From assembly GCA_945870425.1 (NCBI GenBank), contig CAMBSD010000015.1:1-64000 (forward strand): a stretch of DNA of 64,000 nt. The letters are read 5' to 3'. Made by a program: the position numbers and the translations under genes. This DNA is from Chitinophaga pinensis (GTDB lineage: Bacteria > Bacteroidota > Bacteroidia > UKL13-3). The notes beneath the pieces are model-generated. The model was not told the origin of the DNA, did no database searches, and saw nothing but the letters and a program-made list of their open reading frames with translations. Numbering within the stretch: position 1 is the stretch's first letter; each line of letters starts with the position of its first letter. Shown here one piece after another: positions 47,063-49,839 of the stretch.

Positions 47063-47130
47063 ATGTCAGGAATTGCTTCCCGGCATTTTTTATGATTAAT
47101 ACAGTTGGGGGGGGTAACACCCGACTGCAC
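47063..47130. repeat. Composite two-hairpin repeat, copy B
   Basis: ATGTCAGG-AATTGCTT-CCCGGCAT (mismatched stem), then GGGGGGG-GTAA-CACCCG and ACTGCAC. It shares TAACACCCGACTGCAC with copy A. Confidence 0.65.
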
Positions 47131-47166
47131 CATAATTCACACATTTGCAAATTTTCACATACACAT

Positions 47167-49839
47167 TTAAGCTTTCCCCATCCTCTCCGTTCCAAAGTCA
47201 ATTATTTTGTCAATAAACTCATAAGGTTTATAGCCGTTCAGAGCGCATTGGTGAAAGATAGCCGTAGCGGGTGTCATGCCCGGCAAAGAGTTAATTTCTA
47301 TAATCACCACCTCTACTTTGTTCTTATCAAAAATCTTCACAAAGGCATCAATACGGCAATAGCCTTCTACATTCAAGACTTTGGCAGTTTTCTTCAATTC
47401 ATCTTGCACCTTTTTGCTTATCTCTTGTTGGGCTTTGGCATTTTTGCTAAAACGGCTTGGCGTTATGTTTTGCCCTTGTCCTGCTAAGAATTTCTCCTCT
47501 AATGAAAGTATTTCGCCTTCTGCCAAGGTTTCGCTTGGCTCAAACATTTCATATTGTAGTTTGCCTTTTTTGAAGTATGTAAGCAAACCCCCAGTTACTT
47601 CTAAAAAGTGTTTGGCATTGCCTTTCTCTACAAACTTTTCAACCAAGAAATAGGCTTTTCTTGGAAACTCTTCTTTGGGTTTTAGTCCTAGTTTTTCACT
47701 TAATAATGCATCCATTAAATCAGCCGATCTAAAAACCCCTTCAGCATAATTAATCAAATCATCTTGGATCTTTATTTTCTTCACAGCACTACTACAGCCA
47801 TCGTCAGCAGGCTTGGCAATTAATGGGTAGCCTATTTTCTCAACTTGTTTAATCACTGCTGCTTTGTCTTTCTTCCACTTATCCATATGCACCAGCATGT
47901 GTTCTGCTACACGAATACCATTTTTCTTCAGCAGCTCGTTGGTGTCGTATTTATTAATGGTTATTTTAGAACTATCTACCCCACTGCCATTAAATGGTAT
48001 TTTTAGTTTTATCAATTCTTTCTGCACCGTTCCGTCTTCACCTGGTCTGCCGTGTAGGGCAATAAACACCGCATCAGTCATCTTTGCCAGTTCTTTGTAG
48101 CTTATTTCCTTAGGGGCAAACAAGGCTTGGGTATTTCCATATTTCTTCAAAAGTGTTTCGCACTCTTTGCTTATCTTTTTGATGATGGGCGATACTTTGT
48201 AATGCAATACTTTTTCTTTGATATCATCGGCATTGTCTTTCAACATCACATTGATAGGCAAAGTGTATAGCTTATGGTGCTTGTCATCACCTGTAACAAA
48301 TACTGGAAAAGGCTGGTACTTGCTAGATGAAGCAAATTTCTCATAGATATTTCTTCCACTCTCCACTGAGATGTGTCTTTCTGTAGAATAACCACCCATA
48401 AACACAGCCACTCGTTTTTTAGTGTTTGTTTTATTTTGGTTGGAAGCAATTTTATTATCAAGGTGTTTTAATAATGCATCGTGATGAAAATGTACCACCT
48501 GTGATTTAGCCCTATCAGCAATGGAGGTGCGAATGATATAGGTTAAAAACTGTGAAGGATTTAGTCCAATCTCGGCCGCTTGATGAAAGAAGAAAGAGCT
48601 TGGCATCATACCACTGGTTGTATTTGGATCATTTAAGAAAATCTTACCTCCAGTGTTTATAAAACCATCAATGCGGGCATATACATGAAAATTGAAATAA
48701 GTAAACAAATCCTGACAAGCTTTTCTAATCTCGTCAATCTTCTTTTCTTCAATATCTATGGGTGTTACTTTTCTGCTGAGGCCAGGAAGATATTTGCTTC
48801 TGTAGTCATACACCTCTTTGCCCTTAACAATCTCGGTTGGAGGCAAGGCAACAGCAGTTCCATCTTCGTTTTTCAATACGATACAACTAAATTCCCTTCC
48901 TTCAATAAAACTCTCGATTAAGCATTCAGTTTCACTATATATACTTTCAAGTTTTATGGTTGATTCCCCTTTTGATTTTTTATTAAAAATTGCATCAAAC
49001 AAATCCCATAAATCATCAGGATTATAAATGATCTCACCCCTACAGATGGCTGGCAATCCTATGCCTTCTTTCACATCCGTAATCTTTTGAATGAATTGAG
49101 TTTTGCCTTTTTCATCTAAAGCTATCCATTCTTTTGATGAAATTTCTTGAATAAAAAATGCCTTTTGTACAGCCAATTCAAATTCATCATAATTATCTTT
49201 AGAAATTACACTAACACCAACAGAACTGCCTTGGTTTGCGGGCTTCACAACAAATGGTAGTCCCACTTCTTTTTTGGCCGTTTTGAAAGTCTCTTTTAAG
49301 TTATTAAGAGAAGATTTATCAAATGAAAACCATTTGGGTATATGCATGCCTGCAGCTTGCATCCATTGTTTTTGCAAACGTTTGTTCATGCCTAAAGCAC
49401 TAGGTAATATGCCACTTCCCGTGTATGGAATATCCATAAATTCAAGTAGGCCTTGAATGCTTCCATCTTCTCCATTAGCACCATGTAAGGCCAAGAAAGC
49501 AAAATCAATCATGTCTTTTAGGTCTTCAGCTTTAATGATTTTACCCAAACCTCTTAATAGAGATTTGCCATTGTCTTTATGCGCATCAGCAATATTTTCA
49601 GCATAAATCTGAATACCGTGTTTTTGTTTTTTTGTAGCAGAAACAGGCGGATAAAAATCTCTGATGGAGCCTTTGTAAATAAAATGCCAATCGAGCAGAA
49701 TAAAATTATTAAAACTATCTACAAATATAGGAATAGCTTCAAAAAGCGTTTTGTCTAAATTGTCGTAAACAGTGCGTCCACCAGCAAAACTCACCTCACG
49801 CTCGCGGCTATTGCCACCAAAAAAAATTCCTACTTTCAT
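47167..49839 (-). CDS. Tandem-fused D-alanine-D-alanine ligase-like protein (two ATP-grasp units)
   Basis: 890 residues, more than twice a usual Ddl. Unit 1 (1 to about 470) has the N-terminal GGNSREREVSF, LHGANGEDGSIQG (118-130), KPANQGSSVGV (199-209) and RIDGF (389-393). The final metal motif reads DPNTTSGMMPSS instead of E-x-N-x-x-PGMTPxS. Unit 2 (about 475 to 890) restarts with RVAVFMGGYSTERHISVESG (476-495), then LHGRPGEDGTVQ (595-606), KPADDGCSSAV (676-686) and the standard EINSLPGMTPATA near residue 850. So unit 2 has standard catalytic metal ligands and unit 1 a changed set. The role in peptidoglycan is expected but the tandem form is unexplained. Confidence 0.85.
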   Translation of the reverse strand: MKVGIFFGGNSREREVSFAGGRTVYDNLDKTLFEAIPIFVDSFNNFILLDWHFIYKGSIRDFYPPVSATKKQKHGIQIYAENIADAHKDNGKSLLRGLGKIIKAEDLKDMIDFAFLALHGANGEDGSIQGLLEFMDIPYTGSGILPSALGMNKRLQKQWMQAAGMHIPKWFSFDKSSLNNLKETFKTAKKEVGLPFVVKPANQGSSVGVSVISKDNYDEFELAVQKAFFIQEISSKEWIALDEKGKTQFIQKITDVKEGIGLPAICRGEIIYNPDDLWDLFDAIFNKKSKGESTIKLESIYSETECLIESFIEGREFSCIVLKNEDGTAVALPPTEIVKGKEVYDYRSKYLPGLSRKVTPIDIEEKKIDEIRKACQDLFTYFNFHVYARIDGFINTGGKIFLNDPNTTSGMMPSSFFFHQAAEIGLNPSQFLTYIIRTSIADRAKSQVVHFHHDALLKHLDNKIASNQNKTNTKKRVAVFMGGYSTERHISVESGRNIYEKFASSSKYQPFPVFVTGDDKHHKLYTLPINVMLKDNADDIKEKVLHYKVSPIIKKISKECETLLKKYGNTQALFAPKEISYKELAKMTDAVFIALHGRPGEDGTVQKELIKLKIPFNGSGVDSSKITINKYDTNELLKKNGIRVAEHMLVHMDKWKKDKAAVIKQVEKIGYPLIAKPADDGCSSAVKKIKIQDDLINYAEGVFRSADLMDALLSEKLGLKPKEEFPRKAYFLVEKFVEKGNAKHFLEVTGGLLTYFKKGKLQYEMFEPSETLAEGEILSLEEKFLAGQGQNITPSRFSKNAKAQQEISKKVQDELKKTAKVLNVEGYCRIDAFVKIFDKNKVEVVIIEINSLPGMTPATAIFHQCALNGYKPYEFIDKIIDFGTERMGKA

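Follow-up and report, generated by a model that had tools for sequence, protein, structure and literature searches.

D-Ala-D-Ala ligase (Ddl) is needed by every walled bacterium for cell wall building; it is essential, is the target of D-cycloserine, and is regarded as a single enzyme that has a single active site. In the window, by which we mean the whole 64,000-nucleotide stretch of DNA that was analysed, one gene encodes two Ddl units in a single protein. This raises the question of what each unit does, and which of them supplies the cell with D-Ala-D-Ala.

Layout and fold of the tandem gene

A single uninterrupted open reading frame on the minus strand starts with ATG and encodes 890 residues. 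The gene and its features are:

47167..49839, minus strand: tandem Ddl gene, 890 aa; an open reading frame kept as one gene in relatives
48421..49839, minus strand: N-terminal Ddl unit (unit 1), residues 1-473, with the helix linker at its C-terminal end; PF01820/PF07478 and fold match
48421..48501, minus strand: linker, mainly helix, residues 447-473; predicted structure
47170..48420, minus strand: C-terminal Ddl unit (unit 2), residues 474-890; fold match to solved Ddl
48139..48417, minus strand: first unit 2 subdomain, residues 475-567; all that truncated relatives retain of this unit
49222..49245, minus strand: unit 1 KPANQGSS (199-206), with the equivalent of the dipeptide-type Ser150; Ser in 75/75
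48787..48807, minus strand: unit 1 DYRSKYL (345-351), with the omega-loop Lys215/Tyr216 equivalents; K and Y in 75/75
48610..48630, minus strand: unit 1 DPNTTSG (404-410), Asp for the Mg ligand Glu270 and Ser for Pro275; 75/75
47788..47814, minus strand: unit 2 KPADDGCSS (676-684), Cys for Ser150; 75/75
47482..47508, minus strand: unit 2 LSLEEKFLA (778-786), Phe for Tyr216; 75/75
47272..47298, minus strand: unit 2 EINSLPGMT (848-856), standard Mg ligands Glu270/Asn272; E and N in 75/75

Unit 1 carries LHG at 118-120, KPANQGSS, R389-x-D391 and NDPNTTSGMM at 403-412. The corresponding motifs of unit 2 are LHG at 595-597, KPADDGCS at 676-683, R829-x-D831 and EINSLPGMT. These positions match those in the preliminary description with one exception, the second R-x-D, which lies at 829-831 and not at about 840. 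Pfam finds PF01820 (the Ddl N-domain) twice in the protein and PF07478 (the Ddl C-domain) in four stretches, covering both units.

Structure prediction gave a confident model of the full-length protein (pLDDT 83, pTM 0.84). In comparisons with solved Ddl, unit 1 (residues 1-451) matched with a Z of 36.9 over 318 residues, and unit 2, folded alone, with a Z of 31.5 over 320 residues. These matches indicate that both units are complete Ddl folds joined by a helix, and the protein is the fusion of two Ddl units that had been proposed from the motifs. Against the Ddl family model, the whole protein scored 386 bits, above the cut-off of 245.65, and each unit alone fell below it (240.5 bits for unit 1 and 154.9 bits for unit 2). 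The score of unit 2 against the D-Ala-D-Lac ligase model was 98.6 bits, short of its cut-off of 550. The tandem makes the automatic annotation of such genes as plain Ddl open to question.

Within the window, the tandem gene has a TlpA-like thioredoxin, a cyclophilin and KsgA as neighbours. A 131-aa open frame at 47092-47487 on the plus strand runs antisense to it and is probably spurious.

Distribution and age of the tandem gene

Searching the whole genome with the PF01820 and PF07478 profiles, we found no second, separate Ddl. The two PF01820 matches both lie inside the tandem frame, which extends the earlier statement that no separate ddl is present from the window to the genome; a second ordinary ddl elsewhere is thus rejected. 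PF07478 matched the two tandem units and also other open frames that have no PF01820 match; from this and their lengths, we read them as ordinary ATP-grasp enzymes. The genome encodes MurF (a 431-aa frame) and thus an enzyme that uses D-Ala-D-Ala. A further MurF-like domain lies in an 833-aa frame, presumably a MurF-alanine racemase fusion as known from Bacteroidota. The MurF-like proteins lie at G000:C9:5988-7283 and G000:C11:6168-7409; a genome with ordinary Ddl (G261) has both as well, so the pair is not tied to the tandem.

We sorted 296 Bacteroidia genomes by their matches to the Ddl model and to the tandem protein, reading the two tables together. About 129 carry the tandem type, three of them in truncated form, about 166 carry an ordinary Ddl of ~330 residues, and one has neither. 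None of the 296 has both types, and no tandem was found among ~285 sampled genomes of the phylum's other classes. Relatives' tandem proteins range from ~80% down to ~40% identity to the window protein, and this spread across the class rejects confinement to one genus. The tandem Ddl is an old, exclusive replacement of the ordinary enzyme, and a large part of Bacteroidia depends on it.

Two artefacts had been considered when the gene was first described: a sequencing error joining two genes, and relatives that carry two genes with a stop between. Neither was upheld. The layout is conserved as a single gene in dozens of relatives, which excludes a sequencing error. The apparent splits in nine genomes (G023, G030, G050, G074, G089, G135, G198, G237 and G244) all fall at contig ends, and unit 2 by itself was seen in no genome except at contig ends. 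One further genome, G179, has a match that breaks off near its 3' end, at residue 833 and not at a contig end, and is followed by a second match; the probable cause is a frameshift in this assembly.

In many relatives the tandem gene adjoins a gene with a PASTA domain, as do several ordinary Bacteroidia ddl genes. In G314 (L129:1742-5341), the tandem frame itself runs on through a membrane segment into a PASTA domain, giving 1200 aa. The PASTA neighbour shared with ordinary ddl, together with this fusion, suggests that the tandem came to occupy the locus where ddl ancestrally lay. A 1389-aa frame in G621 may resemble this Ddl-PASTA fusion. Three families (f42, f51 and f60) mix tandem and ordinary genomes, indicating that switches or transfers between the two types happened more than once.

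The two units are 25% identical, and the N-halves and C-halves form two separate clades with supports of 100, so a recent duplication is rejected. Pairwise identities of the two units correlate (r 0.95), and the C-half (58%) is about as conserved as the N-half (56%), which rejects a degenerate second unit. The sequences thus describe two old halves that diverged long ago and are both under strong constraint.

Active sites and truncated relatives

An alignment was built from 75 tandem proteins, 30 ordinary Bacteroidia Ddl and E. coli DdlB. E15, H63, E68, K97, E180, E187, K215, R255, D257, N272 and G276 are invariant in both units. Metal, ATP and phosphate contacts are all invariant in the two units despite wide divergence, the exceptions being the conservative Glu270Asp of unit 1 and one Lys144Arg among the 75 proteins.

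The pockets differ between the units. In all 75 proteins, unit 1 keeps E15, H63, E68, D69, K97, S150, K215, Y216, R255, D257, N272, G276 and S281, and has Asp for Glu270 and Ser for Pro275; nearly all have Met or Leu at position 278, and most have Phe at 282. Unit 2 keeps Glu270, Asn272, Asp257, Pro275 and Thr278 in 75/75, so that all three Mg ligands are present, and equally consistently replaces Ser150 with Cys, Tyr216 with Phe and Ser281 with Thr; Tyr210 is Leu. Ser150 together with Tyr216 marks enzymes that make D-Ala-D-Ala only (PMC7691350), and whether residue 216 is Tyr or Phe decides between dipeptide and depsipeptide activity (PMC5996685). Because only unit 1 keeps the Ser150/Tyr216 marker, its pocket is of the dipeptide type and that of unit 2 is not.

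The preliminary description had noted that DPNTTSGMM in unit 1 replaces Glu and Pro, which holds in every protein aligned. It had also suggested that the units differ in role, and the invariant, unit-specific pocket differences support this. Its implied assignment of unit 2 as standard and unit 1 as altered is probably the wrong way round. The alignment of ATP-, Mg- and D-Ala-contacting residues that it proposed gives an invariant catalytic set beside two distinct pockets.

Truncated relatives bear on which unit is needed. In a family of three genomes (f65: G226, G259 and G305; 6.4-7.2 Mb, with G259 complete in one contig), a frame of 561-590 aa comprises unit 1, then ~95 residues alignable to the beginning of unit 2, and ends there in a stop. 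A profile search found no other Ddl in these genomes. The same truncated form occurs in Bernardetia sp. Wsw4-3y2 (Cytophagales), as a protein of 623 aa. In a tree with the N-halves, the truncated forms are one group (support 91/62) without a firm position among the N-halves. Asp270 is kept in both f65 and Bernardetia, so a genome's sole Ddl can carry this residue, at least in f65. These data make unit 1, with its Asp270, most likely the essential D-Ala-D-Ala ligase, since a lineage with no other Ddl has lost the ATP-grasp part of unit 2. Unit 2 would then most likely be a second, dispensable site of changed specificity.

The truncated proteins read N-T-(L/I)-P-G-M-S..S-L, so that positions 275, 278 and 282 resemble ordinary Ddl. 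This may be either a reversal or a retained ancestral state. At these three positions, proteins that have the catalytic part of unit 2 thus differ from those that lack it, a hint that the units are coupled. The Bernardetia gene (L170, NZ_CP147018.1:82783-84654) lies on a 602-kb replicon labelled a plasmid, which may therefore carry an essential gene.

Roles of the two units

On balance, we lean towards the explanation that the protein is the cell's only D-Ala-D-Ala ligase, built of two fused, long-diverged units, with unit 1 making D-Ala-D-Ala and unit 2 having a changed second-substrate site. Unit 1 (Ser150/Tyr216, Asp270) would make the D-Ala-D-Ala that MurF uses. Unit 2 (Cys150/Phe216/Thr281) would also be an active ATP-grasp ligase, either making another D-Ala-X or serving as a back-up ligase of other specificity. 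Several points weigh against this explanation. Glu270Asp could make unit 1 less active, and the conservation of catalytic residues may have a structural or allosteric cause. In intact tandems, unit 1 has Ser275, Met/Leu278 and Phe282, which are absent from the truncated forms, so there unit 1 alone may be nonfunctional. No partner gene, such as one for D-lactate supply, could be tied to unit 2, and the activities of both units are predictions from sequence. A different product of unit 2 is possible, and Bacteroidia with the tandem may make a second product with it. It is a tentative possibility that the two sites make two products, D-Ala-D-Ala in unit 1 and a depsipeptide or other D-Ala-X in unit 2, giving an undescribed wall precursor or metabolite, and that the plant double DDL may descend from such a protein.

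If instead both units made D-Ala-D-Ala, or unit 2 were the main ligase with unit 1 as an altered partner, fusion might serve to raise dosage or stability. The standard Mg ligands and EINSLPGMT of unit 2, and invariants as strong as those of unit 1, are what such an enzyme would have. However, Cys150, Phe216 and Thr281 are just as invariant, and a lineage with no other Ddl is missing the catalytic part of unit 2; we consider this arrangement unlikely. One unit could also lack catalysis and, binding D-Ala or ATP, regulate its partner. Retention of the first subdomain of unit 2 in the truncated lineage points to a structural role towards unit 1, and the differences at 275/278/282 suggest coupling, but the phosphoryl-transfer residues are all kept in both units, the two exceptions above aside. 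A purely regulatory unit, as had been suggested, is thus quite improbable.

Ordinary Ddl forms a dimer, whose face has been described (PMC6899670), and the fusion might merely tie this homodimer together covalently as a symmetric pseudo-dimer. In favour of this, the pTM of the full-length model places the halves with some confidence. Yet the face is small and hydrophobic in unit 1 (Gly74, Leu75, Ile88, Leu/Met89, Ala92) and polar or charged in unit 2, including positions 74, 75, 89 and 92. A pseudo-dimer therefore appears very unlikely, and we infer that the chain probably dimerises through unit 1, like ordinary Ddl, with unit 2 outside.

Plants are reported to have a double DDL: across their whole lineage, the plastid DDL derives from two fused DDL genes (PMC9954125) and, like the Bacteroidia tandem, has two Ddl units in one protein. 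Of a bacterial tandem we found no report in the open-access literature searched. For Hymenobacter or Pontibacter, the same literature yielded no vancomycin phenotype that could be used. Homologs from the Fibrobacteres-Chlorobi-Bacteroidetes group are stated to be the nearest to moss Ddl (PMC9434261), which makes a link between plant and Bacteroidia DDL worth testing, and the tandem offers a bacterial counterpart for comparison.

With bacterial Ddl of the E. coli DdlB type (TIGR01205/NF002378), the tandem shares the fold, the ATP-grasp residues and a role that is expected from the lack of any other Ddl and from the PASTA genes beside it in many relatives. It differs in having two units and 890 aa, with each unit below the family cut-off, and in Glu270Asp of unit 1 and Ser150Cys/Tyr216Phe of unit 2. 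Its second site bears the dipeptide-to-depsipeptide switch residue, and the tandem is a natural test of Ddl specificity rules. The Leuconostoc D-Ala-D-Lac ligase LmDdl2 (1EHI) matches the fold of unit 2 (Z 30.2) and likewise has Phe at the Tyr216 position, as unit 2 does in 75/75, but unit 2 is no closer to the D-Ala-D-Lac family than to ordinary Ddl. Chlamydia also has a Ddl unit in a fusion, MurC-Ddl (NF011171), where the partner is MurC rather than a second Ddl.
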